DNA from: Burkholderiales bacterium
GTDB taxonomy: Bacteria; Pseudomonadota; Gammaproteobacteria; Burkholderiales; WYBJ01
Reading direction: 5' to 3'
Length of the DNA: 64,000 nucleotides
Assembly: GCA_022841915.1 (NCBI GenBank)
Contig: JALHQN010000020.1
Span: 16,428-80,427, forward strand
Part shown: in pieces, positions 9,870-17,073 of the stretch
Layout of the letters: every line of letters starts with the position of its first letter
Numbering within the stretch: the stretch's first letter is position 1
The notes under the pieces: model-generated
The model's database searches: none
What the model was told of the DNA's origin: nothing
Seen by the model: only the letters and a program-made list of their open reading frames with translations
Made by a program: the position numbers and the translations under genes

Positions 9870-10051
9870 ACTGGTCCACGGTCACCCCCTGCAGTGCCTC
9901 GCTGCCCCGCCACTGATCCACCGCAAATCCATTGCGGGCAAGTGGTGGGATAATCACCGTATGTCGTCCCACGTATCATCCAAAATCCCTTGCACGACGC
10001 CGTCCGCAGGCACGAGCCCCAAGCTCGCCCCAGGGTCGCGGGGAGCATGGC

Positions 10052-11569
10052 ATGGCTGATTTCCCGACGCTCGCCGCAGTCGATCTGGGTTCGAACAGTT
10101 TTCACCTTCAGGTGGGGCGAGTGGTCGGGGAGCAGATCTATCCCCTGGACAGCCTGCGGGAAGCGGTCCGCCTCGGTGCAGGCTTGCGCGAAGACAAGAC
10201 GCTGGACGAGGACACCCAGGCGCGTGCGCTGGAATGCCTGTTGCGCTTCGGCGAACGTTTGCGCGGCTTGCCCAAGGGGGCGGTTCGCGCTGTCGGGACC
10301 AACACCTTTCGCGTCGCAGCAAACGCGCAGGACTTCTTGCAGAAAGCCGAAGCGGCCCTCGGCGTGCCCATCGAAGTCATTGCCGGGCGCGAAGAGGCGC
10401 GACTCATCTATCTGGGCGTCGCGCACAGCCTGCCGCTCACGCGAGAGCGGCGGCTGGTGGTCGACATCGGCGGAGGCTCCACTGAATTCATCATCGGCTC
10501 GGGTCTGAAGCCGCTCAAGCTCGCCAGCCTGCACATGGGCTGCGTGAGCTACACGATGCGCTTCTTTCCGGACGGCCGAGTCACCAAACAGGCGCTGAAA
10601 GAAGCCGAACTGGTCGCGCGTTCGGAACTGCAGTCGATGGCGACGAGCTTCTCCCGGCCTCATTGGCACGAAGCCGTGGCGTCCTCGGGCACGGCGCGCA
10701 GTCTTGCCGAAGTTCTGCAGACGACGGGTCTGGGCGACGGGGGCATCACGCCGGAGGGCCTCGCCGCCTTGCGCGGGCTGGTGCTCAAAGCAGGCGACTT
10801 CGAGCGTTTGCAGATCTCCGGGTTGCGCCCGGACCGAGCGGCCGTGCTGCCGGGAGGCCTGGCGATCATGAGCGCGATCGTCTCCGAATTGGGTGCAAGC
10901 CGGGTCACCATCACCAGCGGCGCCATGCGCCAAGGCATCCTTTGGGACTTGCTCGGGCGCGTCCACCATCACGACATGCGCGATGTGACGGCAGCGCAGC
11001 TGATGCACCGCTACCATGTCGACAGCGCCCAAGCCAAACGGGTCGGCACGCTCGCCCTGGAACTGCTCAGTCAGATCCCGAGCGGCGAAGACAGGCAGAT
11101 CGCCGAGCTCTTCGTGGGCTGGGCTGCCAAGCTGCACGAAATCGGCATTACGGTATCGTACAGCGGCTATCACAAGCATTCGGCGTACATCCTGCTCAAT
11201 GCCGACATGCCGGGCTTCTCGCGCATGGAGCAGCAGCGGCTGGCCGCGCTCGTTCTGGCCCACCGCGGCCCGCTGCGCAAGATCGCAGACGCCGGAGTCA
11301 CGGACGATCACTGGCCCATGGTCGCGGCCCTGCGCTTGGCGGTGCTCTTCAACCGCAGCCGAGTCAAGATGACCTTGCCGCGGATCCGGCTGCGCGCCTA
11401 TGGCCGACACTTCGTGCTCGATCTGCCGGAACAGTGGCTCGCGGACAACGCGTTGACCGAAACCGCCCTGCGCGAAGAGATCAAGCAGTGGCGCGGTTCG
11501 GGCAGCGAGTTGGAAGTTCGTTTGATGCGCGACGACGCGACCCGCGGGCAGCTGCCCGCTGCAGCCTGA
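10052..11569 (+). CDS. ppx: Exopolyphosphatase (Ppx/GppA family)
   Basis: MADFPTLAAVDLGSNSFHLQVGRV, VDIGGGSTEFIIG, HD-like C-terminal domain. Confidence 0.95.
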   Translation: MADFPTLAAVDLGSNSFHLQVGRVVGEQIYPLDSLREAVRLGAGLREDKTLDEDTQARALECLLRFGERLRGLPKGAVRAVGTNTFRVAANAQDFLQKAEAALGVPIEVIAGREEARLIYLGVAHSLPLTRERRLVVDIGGGSTEFIIGSGLKPLKLASLHMGCVSYTMRFFPDGRVTKQALKEAELVARSELQSMATSFSRPHWHEAVASSGTARSLAEVLQTTGLGDGGITPEGLAALRGLVLKAGDFERLQISGLRPDRAAVLPGGLAIMSAIVSELGASRVTITSGAMRQGILWDLLGRVHHHDMRDVTAAQLMHRYHVDSAQAKRVGTLALELLSQIPSGEDRQIAELFVGWAAKLHEIGITVSYSGYHKHSAYILLNADMPGFSRMEQQRLAALVLAHRGPLRKIADAGVTDDHWPMVAALRLAVLFNRSRVKMTLPRIRLRAYGRHFVLDLPEQWLADNALTETALREEIKQWRGSGSELEVRLMRDDATRGQLPAAA

Positions 11570-11625: not shown

Positions 11626-13488
11626 ATGCCTTCCCGCAGCGATGAACCTGCCAAGGTCCTGGCCGAACTCGAGCACGTGCGCAGCGAAGTCCGAGCCGCG
11701 CAGTCGGCATTGCTTCGCGACTGGCGGTCTGAAGGCCCCCTGGGTCGATTCGCCGACAGCGCCGCCAATCTCGCCGCGTACATCGCCCTGCGGCGTCTTG
11801 ACCTGACCGATCTGCAGCCCCGGCTCGCAGCGCTGGGCCTGTCGTCGCTCGGTCGCTGCGAAGGGCACGTGCTCGCCACGCTGGATGCCGTTCTCCTTGC
11901 ATTGCGGCGTATGTGCGGACGCTCGCGTCCACGCGCGAGCCCGCTCGGGACAGGCACACTCGCCGATACGTCCTCCTCGCTCCGGCAAGCCACCGACCGT
12001 CTCCTCGGCGCACCGCCCTATCCGCGACGCACCCGCTTCATGGTCACCCTGCCGTTGAGCGCGGCGCGAGACAGTCGATTCGTGGACACATTGGTCGAGC
12101 ACGGCATGGATTGTGCGCGAATCAACGCAGCCCACGACCAAAGCGAAGACTGGATCGCCATGGTCAAGCAGGTTCGGCGAGCGGCTGCCCGCTACGGCCG
12201 CTCGGTGAAGATACTGGTCGACCTGCCGGGGCCGAAATTGCGCACCGGCCCACTGCCGCCGGGGCCTGCGGTACTGCACCTGAAGGTGAAGCGCGATCCG
12301 CTCGGTCGATTGCTTGCCTGCGGCCGCATGATCCTGGATGGCAGCGGTCGGCCCGGCCACGACGCCACACCAGCGCCAGGCGAGCCCGAGTCGTTGGCGC
12401 GACTGAGTTTGCCCCCGGCGTGGATCGCTCGGCTGCGCATGACCGACTCGATCGCATTTCGAGACTTGCGCGGGCGCCGCCGCACGCTCAAGGTCGTCGG
12501 CCGCCTCGACGAACAACAGGTGATCGTCGCCTGCGAGCGCGGCGCCTACATTTCGCCCGGCCTGGTTTTCGAGCGCCGTTCGCGCGCCGGCGTGCGCCAG
12601 CGATCCACGGTGGGCCCATTCGCCGCACCGCCGGTTCGCGTGCGCATCGTGACCGGCGATCGTTTGCTCCTCTCCTCGACCCCCGACGCAGGGCGTCCCG
12701 AGCAGCGCCGCGCCGATGGTCGGGTCGAATCGCCGGCGGTGATCGGTTGCATCGAACCTTCGGTGTTCGATCATCTGGAACCCGGTCAAACGGTGAAGAT
12801 CGACGACGGCAAAGTCACGGCCCTGATCGAGCATGTCGATCACCGGGGCGCGATGCTGAAGATCGTGCACGCACCTCCGCGGGGCGCGACCCTCGGCCCG
12901 GACAAGGGGCTCAACTTCCCGGACACCCTCCTGCCGGCGCACGGACTCGACCAACGCGACCACAGTGCGCTGCGCTTCGCCGCCGAGTACGCCGACATCG
13001 TCGGCTATTCGTTCGTGCAGTCGGGTGCCGAAATGGACGCCTTGCACCGCAGCCTGGCTTCGCTGACGCGACGACGATTGGGCGTGATCGCGAAGATCGA
13101 GACGGCGGTCGCCCTGCAAAACCTGCCCGGCATCATCGTGCGGGGCGCCAGCCACGGACCTTTCGGGGTCATGATCGCGCGCGGCGATCTCGCCGTGGAG
13201 ATCGGCTACCTGCGCCTGGCCGAAGTGCAGGAAGAACTGCTCTGGCTCTGTGAGGCGGCGCGGGTGCCCGTGATCTGGGCAACGCAGGTGCTCGAAGGGC
13301 TCATCAAGCGTGGCACACCCACTCGGGCCGAGGTCACCGATGCGGCAACCGCCGAGCGGGCCGAATGCATCATGCTCAACAAGGGCCCCTACCTGCCGCA
13401 GGCCCTGGACACGCTGACCAATCTGGTCGGCCGCATGTCGCGCCACCAAAGCAAGAAAACCGCGCGGTTCTCGCCGCTGCCCTGGTAA
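11626..13488 (+). CDS. Pyruvate kinase-like protein with N-terminal extension and no recognisable C-terminal PK domain
   Basis: MPSRSDEPAKVLAELEHVR... then PK barrel motifs RRTRFMVTLP, ILVDLPGPKLRTG, KGLNFPDTLLPAHGLDQRDHSALRFAAEYADIVGYSFVQS, KIETAVALQNL, MIARGDLAVEIG, ATQVLEGLIKRGTPTRAEVTD. Frame upstream of 11626 in the ORF track overlaps ppx and is artefactual. Confidence 0.88.
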   Translation: MPSRSDEPAKVLAELEHVRSEVRAAQSALLRDWRSEGPLGRFADSAANLAAYIALRRLDLTDLQPRLAALGLSSLGRCEGHVLATLDAVLLALRRMCGRSRPRASPLGTGTLADTSSSLRQATDRLLGAPPYPRRTRFMVTLPLSAARDSRFVDTLVEHGMDCARINAAHDQSEDWIAMVKQVRRAAARYGRSVKILVDLPGPKLRTGPLPPGPAVLHLKVKRDPLGRLLACGRMILDGSGRPGHDATPAPGEPESLARLSLPPAWIARLRMTDSIAFRDLRGRRRTLKVVGRLDEQQVIVACERGAYISPGLVFERRSRAGVRQRSTVGPFAAPPVRVRIVTGDRLLLSSTPDAGRPEQRRADGRVESPAVIGCIEPSVFDHLEPGQTVKIDDGKVTALIEHVDHRGAMLKIVHAPPRGATLGPDKGLNFPDTLLPAHGLDQRDHSALRFAAEYADIVGYSFVQSGAEMDALHRSLASLTRRRLGVIAKIETAVALQNLPGIIVRGASHGPFGVMIARGDLAVEIGYLRLAEVQEELLWLCEAARVPVIWATQVLEGLIKRGTPTRAEVTDAATAERAECIMLNKGPYLPQALDTLTNLVGRMSRHQSKKTARFSPLPW

Positions 13489-13504
13489 CCGGTCCGACGA
13501 CACA

Positions 13505-14983
13505 TCAAAGCGCGTCCTCGATGCTCTTGCACAGCGTGCGCAAGATCTTGATGCGCGCGTGATACTTGTCGTTGGCCTCGACCAGCGTCCAGGGGGCGAT
13601 CGACGTGGACGTGCGATCCACCATGTCGCACACCGCGACGTGGTAGGCATCCCATCTTTTCCGGTTGCGCCAATCCTCGGCGGTGATCTTGAAGCGCTTG
13701 AAGGATGTCTTCTCGCGCTCCTTGAAGCGCTTCAACTGCTCTTCCTTGGTGATCTCCAGCCAGAACTTCACCAGCACCGTCTTGTTGGTGATCAACTGCT
13801 CCTCGAAGTCGTTGATCTCCGAATAGGCGCGCATCCAGTCGTACTCGGAACAGAACCCCTCGACGCGCTCGACCAACACGCGTCCGTACCAGGAACGATC
13901 GAAAATGGACAAATGCCCTCGGCGCGGCACATGACGCCAGAATCGCCAGAGGTAAGGCTGAGCGCGCTCCTCTTCGGTCGGCGCGGCGACAGGTATGCCG
14001 CGATAGCGGCGTGCATCCAACGCGCCGGTGATGCGGCGAATGGCACCGCCCTTGCCGGCCGCGTCCTGACCTTCGAACACGGCAATCACGGAAAGCTCGT
14101 TGAACTTCGGATGGCGCGAAAGAAGGTTCAGGCGCCCTTGCCAGCGCTCCAGATCGGTTTGGTATTTGGCGCGCGGAATCTTCGCGCTCATGTCCAGGTT
14201 CACCAGCACGTCCCGGTGACCGATCCGGGGCAGCATCGGCGGGGTCCGGTCCGGCAGGCGCGCGACCGGTTTCTGGTCGAGCCGCTCGCGAATCGCTTCG
14301 AGCAGCAGGCGCCCGACCGTGAGCATCCGATAGTGCGGATCCTCGCCTTCGACGACGATCCAGGGCGCCTCGGCCTTGCTCGTCTGCAGCAGGAACTGCT
14401 CGGAGACCTTGCGAAAGCGGTCGTAGATCTTGTATCGCTCCCAGTCGGTCGCCGTGACGCGCCACCGCGTCTTGGGATCCTTTTCGAGCGCCTTGAGCCG
14501 CTTGCGCTGCCGATCCTTGGAGAGATGGAACCAGAACTTCAGGACCAGCGCCCCCTCGTCGGTGAGCATCTTCTCGAAACGCACGATCTCTGCGATGGAC
14601 TGGGCGAGCACGGCCTTGCCGATGCGGCCATAGACGCGATCGACGATGGGCTGGGTATGCCAGGCGCCGAACAGGATGCCGATCTTGCCTCGCGGTGGCA
14701 GCGCCCGCCAGAACCGCCACATCCGCGGCCGCTCGCGTTCCTCGTCGGAAGGCTCGGGAAACGCATGGGTATGGATATGCCGTGGATCCATCCATTCGTT
14801 GAGCGTGTTGACCGTCTCGCCCTTGCCCGCACCGTCGACACCGCCGATGACGATCACGACCGGAAAGCGATGGGCTTGCGACAAATCGTATTGCACGTTG
14901 AGCAAGGCCTCGCGCAGTTGCGGCTCCTCGCGCTCGAAGGTCTGCTTGTCGATTTTTTGACCCAGTTCGGCCGATTCGAACAT
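13505..14983 (-). CDS. pap: Two-domain PPK2 family polyphosphate:AMP phosphotransferase
   Basis: Two tandem PPK2 domains: GGVDGAGKGETVNTLNEWMDPRHIHTHAF...MWRFWRALPPRGKIGILFGAWH and FEGQDAAGKGGAIRRITGALDARRYRGIPVAAPTEEERAQPYLWRFWRHVPRRGHLSIFDRSWYGRVLVERVEGF. Confidence 0.93.
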   Translation of the reverse strand: MFESAELGQKIDKQTFEREEPQLREALLNVQYDLSQAHRFPVVIVIGGVDGAGKGETVNTLNEWMDPRHIHTHAFPEPSDEERERPRMWRFWRALPPRGKIGILFGAWHTQPIVDRVYGRIGKAVLAQSIAEIVRFEKMLTDEGALVLKFWFHLSKDRQRKRLKALEKDPKTRWRVTATDWERYKIYDRFRKVSEQFLLQTSKAEAPWIVVEGEDPHYRMLTVGRLLLEAIRERLDQKPVARLPDRTPPMLPRIGHRDVLVNLDMSAKIPRAKYQTDLERWQGRLNLLSRHPKFNELSVIAVFEGQDAAGKGGAIRRITGALDARRYRGIPVAAPTEEERAQPYLWRFWRHVPRRGHLSIFDRSWYGRVLVERVEGFCSEYDWMRAYSEINDFEEQLITNKTVLVKFWLEITKEEQLKRFKEREKTSFKRFKITAEDWRNRKRWDAYHVAVCDMVDRTSTSIAPWTLVEANDKYHARIKILRTLCKSIEDAL

Positions 14984-15486: not shown

Positions 15487-16998
15487 TCACCAACAGGGAC
15501 GACTGCGCCGGAACCGCCGCCATAGCGTGCGCAATCGCCGCCTCTCCTGGTGGATCACGTGCGCACTCCATCCGCGTGCGCAATCCACCAACATTCTCTG
15601 CGCGGGTACGGCCGCGCGTACCCGGCTCACCATGGTGGACGCGTCGCACAGCGTCCCCAGGCAATTCTGCAAGCGAACCAACGGTTCGCGAACGTCGTCA
15701 GCCTTACCCTGCGGATAGAGCGATCCGAAGAATTCAATCGCATAGCGCAGCTTCTTGACCGCGATTCGCAGGACATGCAGATGCGCCACCGTGGCGGCCT
15801 TGCGACCCTTGCCGCGCGCCAGAACGCGCCCCATGCGATGCTCGAGCAAGGCCGATGCGAACGGCCCGATGGGCTGGCGCAGTGCCTCGCTCGCCTGGGG
15901 AAAGCCGCCGCCGGCAGCGACGCGCCCGAGTTCCAGCAGCAGGTTCGCTGCGCGCCGGGAGTTCCAGGCCGCCCGCGCGCCGCGGCGGGCCGCTTCACCC
16001 ATGTCATGCGCGCTGTTCCGCAGCCCGTTCAAAGACGAGACCTTCACAACCTCCCCCAGCCCCGCAATCAATTGCGGCATCGCCTCGGCCCTGAAGACAT
16101 CCCAGTCGCGCGCCGGCCCAAGACGCCCACCCAGCCATTTCAGTTCCGCCCTCAGCCTTGTGATCGCCTCGTCGGGCAACCCGTGCGAGAAGACACCCAT
16201 GCACGAGCGCAAGCGACGCACGCTCACGCGCATCTGGTGCAGATATTCGATGTCTTCACCGGCAAGCATCCCGTCGGCGTTCGCCTGTAGCTGGGCGAGC
16301 GCCGAGCCGACGATGCATGCCAACGAGCGAGCGAGGTCGAACTGCCCGTCGAGCACGATTCGCTGCGCCTTTACCGGGGCCGACTTCACCCCCGCCAGCA
16401 GGTAACCGCGCTCGGCTTTGCTGCGGCAGGCAGGTCGCACGCCGAGATCCTGCGCGAGCGCGGCAGCGATGTCGAACAACGCGGGGGCCTGGCCGGCCGT
16501 GAGTTCCAACTCTAGTTCGCAAATCGGCAACCTCGCGGTACCGCAGACGATGTGGCCTCGATCCAGGCTGACCTCGGCGCGGGTGCCGTCGGCAAGCGCC
16601 AGCGTCCGGGTCGTTCGCTCGAACTCGGTCACGAACAGCGGCTTGAGCTTGCGCCGCAGCGGCAGCGATGCGAGTGCCTCGAGACCGGCCAGACCTGCCA
16701 ACGCCTCGAAGGCTAGCTTCTGGTCCGGGACACCGCACGCGACCTCTAGTCGCGTATGCAGTCCACCCGCGGCCTGCCCTCCCCATTTCACGGTCTGCTC
16801 CCAGCCTGCCGGGATCTGCCGCAAGCGCAGGCCTATTCGATCGGACCACAGATCGAACTGCGGCGTGTCGTAATAAACGCTGATCACGCGCGTTGGTCCG
16901 GCTCTGGCGATCGTCGCCGATTCGATCGCAGGATGCGACAACACTCGCCCCGCGTCGCGCGGCGAGAGTTCGAGCTTGAGTTCGGTTTCGGTCATCAT
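15487..16998 (-). CDS. CYTH and CHAD domain-containing protein (putative inorganic triphosphatase / polyP-binding)
   Basis: N-terminal ETELKLEL CYTH signature, YYDTPQFDL; C-terminal CHAD His-rich helices HQMRVSVRRLRSCMGVF and HVLRIAVKKLRYAIEFF. Start could also be the ATG at 17070, 4 nt after the ppk1 stop. Confidence 0.92.
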   Translation of the reverse strand: MMTETELKLELSPRDAGRVLSHPAIESATIARAGPTRVISVYYDTPQFDLWSDRIGLRLRQIPAGWEQTVKWGGQAAGGLHTRLEVACGVPDQKLAFEALAGLAGLEALASLPLRRKLKPLFVTEFERTTRTLALADGTRAEVSLDRGHIVCGTARLPICELELELTAGQAPALFDIAAALAQDLGVRPACRSKAERGYLLAGVKSAPVKAQRIVLDGQFDLARSLACIVGSALAQLQANADGMLAGEDIEYLHQMRVSVRRLRSCMGVFSHGLPDEAITRLRAELKWLGGRLGPARDWDVFRAEAMPQLIAGLGEVVKVSSLNGLRNSAHDMGEAARRGARAAWNSRRAANLLLELGRVAAGGGFPQASEALRQPIGPFASALLEHRMGRVLARGKGRKAATVAHLHVLRIAVKKLRYAIEFFGSLYPQGKADDVREPLVRLQNCLGTLCDASTMVSRVRAAVPAQRMLVDCARGWSAHVIHQERRRLRTLWRRFRRSRPCW

Positions 16999-17073
16999 GC
17001 CGGCAACATTCGTCGAACCGCTCGTCGTCGACCAAGTACCGCGAAAACCGGTCTTCGTCGGCGAGGCCATGCG

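Follow-up and report, generated by a model that had tools for sequence, protein, structure and literature searches.

The 620-residue protein described here belongs to a second type of pyruvate kinase in bacteria, which is little studied but was known before, and its odd features are traits of the whole family, none of them being peculiar to one protein. Judging from its sequence, a structural model and an assayed relative, it is very likely a third, divergent Pyk2-type isozyme of its genome, which would transfer a phosphoryl group from PEP to ADP. The gene lies in a 64,000-nucleotide stretch of DNA, the whole of which is referred to as the window. The features discussed below are collected in Table 1.

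Table 1. Coordinates in the window of the pyruvate kinase gene, its predicted domains and its two neighbours.
Feature	Position	Strand	Evidence
Pyk2-type (PRK14725/NF011314) pyruvate kinase gene, 620 aa	11626..13488	+	ORF, profiles, Pfam, tree
All-helical, family-specific N-terminal domain, residues 1-132	11626..12021	+	model helices, conservation
Barrel (A domain), part one: strands 1-3, RINAAHD (165-171), DLPGPKLR (199-206)	12022..12243	+	
B1, extra B-like (lid) domain, about residues 207-322, invariant D280	12244..12591	+	fold match, hhalign to B2
B2, canonical lid, about residues 323-436, DDG (393-395) and DKGLNFP	12592..12933	+	profile, model
Barrel, part two: KIET (490-493), ARGDL (518-522), ATQ (552-554), MLNKG (583-587), last helix (590-611)	12934..13458	+	
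Exopolyphosphatase, Ppx/GppA family, upstream neighbour	9932..11569	+	
Polyphosphate:AMP phosphotransferase, convergent downstream neighbour	13505..14983	-	TIGR03708, 751.9 bits, above cut-off

A third, atypical pyruvate-kinase-like gene

Translation gave an uninterrupted frame, a real open reading frame. Against a relative of 76% identity (L005), the gene showed 121, 78 and 285 differences at the first, second and third codon positions, respectively, and the alignment began at the first codon of both. The excess at third positions, together with the shared first codon, shows it to be a working gene under coding constraint. Two further genes with PF00224 were found in the same genome, with frames of 499 and 472 codons, and PK_C (PF02887) was confined to these two canonical pyk genes, so the window gene is a third, atypical pyruvate-kinase-like gene. 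Its product matched PF00224 with 153.7 bits in two stretches, the best of which covered residues 378-585; PK_C was not detected in it by the Pfam search, and 33 residues are left beyond NKG. The C-terminal domain is therefore missing, as had been stated in the original prediction. That prediction had named the lack of any other pyk in the genome combined with normal PEP-to-pyruvate activity, or a detectable C-terminal domain, as findings that would speak against it; the genome holds two canonical pyk genes and Pfam detects no such domain.

Family placement and distribution

In NCBIfam, residues 3-616 matched positions 10-605 of the 614 in NF011314 (PRK14725, "pyruvate kinase") with an E-value of 2e-189, the N-terminal domain included. 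The score of 630.8 bits lies 11 bits below the cut-off of 642, which is a curated NCBI threshold for automatic naming and no biological trait; two members above this cut-off, L092 (710 bits) and L095 (675 bits), belong to the same supported clade as the window protein. On TIGR01064 the protein scored 199, below the cut-off of 306, and canonical pyruvate kinases matched NF011314 with E-values of about 1e-46 to 1e-32. A tree was built from 92 barrel sequences (the midpoint root being for drawing only). All 77 rows of the family were set apart in it from the 15 canonical pyruvate kinases by a branch with 100/100 support, and the window protein was nested in a betaproteobacterial clade which contains the members above the cut-off. 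The phylogeny against true pyk that had been proposed thus sets the family apart. In architecture, which is not A-B-C, and in phylogeny, as seen from the TIGR01064 score and this branch, the protein is not an ordinary pyruvate kinase, as had originally been judged probable; the altered substrate use suggested along with this is not supported (see below).

A genome scan gave 80 loci, which were spread over Pseudomonadota, Bacteroidota, Cyanobacteriota, Chloroflexota, Nitrospirota, Actinomycetota, archaea and others. The distribution is patchy, and within the window's own order a member was present in 42 of 300 genomes. We found no papers on PRK14725 in the open-licence literature. Three archaeal contigs (L049, L064 and L040, from Nitrososphaerales and Thermoplasmata) carry full-length members, which suggests that the gene has passed from one domain to another, although L040, a short contig from a MAG, may be a contamination. 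We also noticed that, by alignment, a member from a Nitrosomonas MAG (L054:9866-11755) has lost catalytic residues, R293 being changed to C and T327 to P, in a frame that is open, which reflects either decay or a sequencing error.

The assayed relative from Corynebacterium

A paper of 2016 describes Pyk2 of C. glutamicum (NCgl2809), a pyruvate kinase that is longer by 120 residues at its N-terminus and lacks the C-terminal domain (PMC5112673). It was assayed with PEP and ADP, restores the growth on ribose of a pyk1 pyk2 double deletion, has an S0.5(PEP) of 4.6 mM and a kcat of 5.6 s-1, requires Mn2+ and K+, is activated by FBP and inhibited by ATP, and had the size of a hexamer when run on gel filtration (PMC5112673). 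The assignment to known structure in that paper is limited to residues 128-213 and 346-606, and its main text makes no mention of a B domain (PMC5112673).

The C. glutamicum control genome matched NF011314 at E<=1e-80, well beyond the range of the canonical enzymes given above, and loci in three other Corynebacterium genomes (L057-L059) encode members of 619-622 aa, which aligned over residues 46-611 with about 36% identity to the window protein. From this control-genome match and these loci we infer that C. glutamicum Pyk2 is a member of the NF011314 family. The Corynebacterium members carry RINCAHD, MDLAGPKIRTG and MLNKG, forms of the family signatures that the window protein has too. The gene settings differ, C. 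glutamicum pyk2 being co-transcribed with ldhA whereas the window gene has polyP genes around it. The low identity to the Corynebacterium members and the bits missing from the NF011314 score speak against the assignment as a Pyk2-type isozyme, and we found no published assay for this or another betaproteobacterial member. The characterised homologue is stronger evidence than the outcome on the two points raised in the original prediction, the other pyk genes and the missing C-terminal domain.

Catalytic residues and altered motifs

Residues were compared, in rabbit numbering, across 97 family sequences (the window protein and 96 relatives), each position being counted where its segment was present. 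The equivalents of R72, N74, D112, R119, D177, S242 and D295 were invariant, and K269, E271, R293 and T327 were retained with at most single exceptions. RIN(C/A)AHD, DL(A/P)GPK(L/I)RTG and MLNKG are near-invariant signatures of the family, and all are found in the window protein. S76 was Ala in every family sequence compared, T113 was replaced by Leu or Ile and, with few exceptions, E117 by Lys. Where canonical enzymes have the SGETA loop, a shorter N-KG is found; because this loop has four residues fewer, the alignment column of S361/E363 is unreliable, and only the change from SGETA to N-KG was used.

Each of the altered motifs quoted in the original prediction is indeed present. Altered substrate use had been suggested from them, which is not supported since the changes are conserved family-wide and the Corynebacterium family member is an assayed PEP/ADP pyruvate kinase. 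DLxGPK had also been listed as a departure, but each of the 16 canonical pyruvate kinases compared from the window's order also has L113 and K117, including both copies in the same genome, so this motif is no mark of altered function.

N-KG in place of SGETA and the change of S76 to Ala were unlike every canonical pyruvate kinase examined, and as the loop lies near the active site, the kinetics could differ. Both changes would fit a paralogue with little or no catalytic activity that is retained for regulation or binding, with the canonical isozymes carrying the bulk flux. The two canonical genes would allow such a relaxed function, and the PEP affinity of C. glutamicum Pyk2 itself is low. We consider this explanation improbable, because the catalytic residues are all kept, the gene is under purifying selection and the assayed family member is active.

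K+-independent pyruvate kinases mostly have L113/Q114/K117/(L,I,V)120; in the enzymes that depend on K+, these positions mostly read T113/K114/E117/T120 (PMC12428139). The window protein reads L113/P114/K117/T120, that is two of the four residues of the K+-independent signature, and this mixed pattern makes a prediction of its K+ requirement unsafe. The three Corynebacterium members (L057, L058 and L059) have L113 and K117 and no S76. With the K+ requirement reported for C. glutamicum Pyk2 (PMC5112673), this is a mismatch with the published signature.

Predicted domain layout and a second lid-like domain

An AlphaFold2 model of the window protein (pLDDT 91.5, pTM 0.88) was matched by solved pyruvate kinases in a structure comparison with the PDB, with E-values down to 6e-26. 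All eight barrel strands and the last helix are present in the model, so a truncated barrel is ruled out. The barrel, the fold of the B2 lid and the catalytic residues are held in common with the canonical bacterial enzymes (E. coli PykF/PykA; TIGR01064). The window protein differs from this A-B-C type in the absence of PK_C, in the extra N-domain, in the extra B1 and in the loop that takes the place of SGETA. As a Pyk2-type isozyme, it would use this complete TIM barrel to phosphorylate ADP from PEP, with the usual set of R72, N74, D112, K269, E271, D295 and T327 (rabbit numbering), and B2 would be the canonical lid during catalysis. In place of a C-terminal effector domain it would carry the helical N-domain and the second lid-like domain, B1.

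The N-terminal extension relative to standard pyruvate kinases amounts to about 130 residues, close to the 120 or so originally given. Within it, N48 and Y52 are invariant and R56, Q64 and G71 nearly so. The domain occurs as a single copy in the genome. Pfam and PDB searches found no convincing sequence relative, with weak or chance-like matches only; the lowest E-values belonged to 18-residue matches to designed TIM barrels.

A further stretch of about 120 extra residues in the middle of the protein, roughly 207-322, had been missed by the original prediction. In the model there are two consecutive B-like units, and the order strand-helix-strand-strand-strand-strand-strand is seen at both 258-318 and 371-430. 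When B1, a stretch of roughly 115 residues, was modelled alone (pLDDT 87.9), pyruvate kinases were its best PDB matches. These spanned about 100-115 columns and reached a TM of 0.59 and an rmsd of 2.5 Å, the E-value being no better than 0.005. In hhalign the profiles of B1 and B2 matched with 80% probability (E about 1e-5 in one comparison), while control segments of the same protein all stayed at or below 5%. Against a canonical B domain profile, which held one sequence only, B2 reached 97% probability and B1 5%, a value for B1 that carries little weight in either direction. As the B1 sequence profile found no pyruvate kinase in the PDB, its kinship to the lid is visible only through the fold and the comparison with B2.

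Short relatives of about 490-530 aa from cyanobacteria and Chloroflexi (within L065-L084) have the N-domain, the barrel and the signatures of the window protein. In these relatives (cyanobacteria and one Chloroflexota member) B1 is absent and about 120 residues fewer are found in its place, the spacing from DLxGPK to DDG being 56-64 residues in the short form and about 173-199 in the long form. We read B1 as a duplicated and diverged lid domain, by which the long form would have two lid-like domains. We found no report of a B-domain duplication in this enzyme type in the open-licence literature, and the doubled lid is the one under-described point about the window protein.

By analogy with C. 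glutamicum Pyk2, the N-domain and B1 probably serve oligomerisation and regulation. More tentatively, the degenerate B1 with its invariant D280 and the helical N-domain could together form an effector and oligomer apparatus replacing the C domain, which would explain the response of Pyk2 to FBP; we regard this as a rather speculative proposal.

Genomic neighbourhood

The order of genes in the window is ilvA, rpiA, phoU, ppx, the pyruvate kinase gene (pk), the convergent polyphosphate:AMP phosphotransferase gene, sixA, a CYTH/CHAD gene and ppk1. The arrangement ppx-[pk]-sixA is common to several betaproteobacteria, and ppk1 lies beyond it in the window and in L005. The CYTH/CHAD-like protein adjoining sixA (window 15487-17070) was named from its sequence alone and has no NCBIfam match at E<=1e-10. 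We also observed that the pk and polyphosphate:AMP phosphotransferase genes sit together between ppx and sixA (window 11626-14983), likewise in the close relatives L005 and G003 (L098), and that neither is found at the ppx/sixA junction of L129 and L130, so that the two make up a presence/absence unit.

In these two same-genus genomes without the pk gene (L129, L130), ppx is followed directly by sixA and ppk1, and in a more distant genome the whole polyP block is present and the pk gene absent. In other relatives, the pk gene lies beside thyA and DHFR (dihydrofolate reductase), thymidylate kinase, mutL or other genes, and in some it is on a different contig from ppx. A metallo-beta-lactamase gene, read from the opposite strand, intervenes between pk and ppx in L006. 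The polyP genes around it form a block that existed in betaproteobacteria already, into which the pk gene was inserted or from which it was lost, and the link to polyP is positional and bound to the lineage.

The original prediction had offered a role in polyP metabolism from this context. A protein repurposed for polyP or nucleotide metabolism with Ppx, PPK1 and polyphosphate:AMP phosphotransferase, for example in a PEP/AMP/ADP/polyP exchange, would suit the position of the gene in ilvA-rpiA-phoU-ppx-[pk]-sixA-CYTH/CHAD, both in the window and in several relatives among the betaproteobacteria, but it is highly improbable and is ruled out as the main reading, given that congeners hold the block without the gene, that the gene occurs in unrelated contexts and that members without polyP context have identical motifs.

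Significance

With the assignment to the Pyk2 type, a candidate "new enzyme" falls away, since its altered motifs are the mark of a second kind of pyruvate kinase which is already known and occurs patchily across many phyla. The assignment also raises a testable structural question on regulation, the location of the effector site: the long members combine two lid-like domains with the loss of the C domain, and one of them is reported to be activated by FBP.
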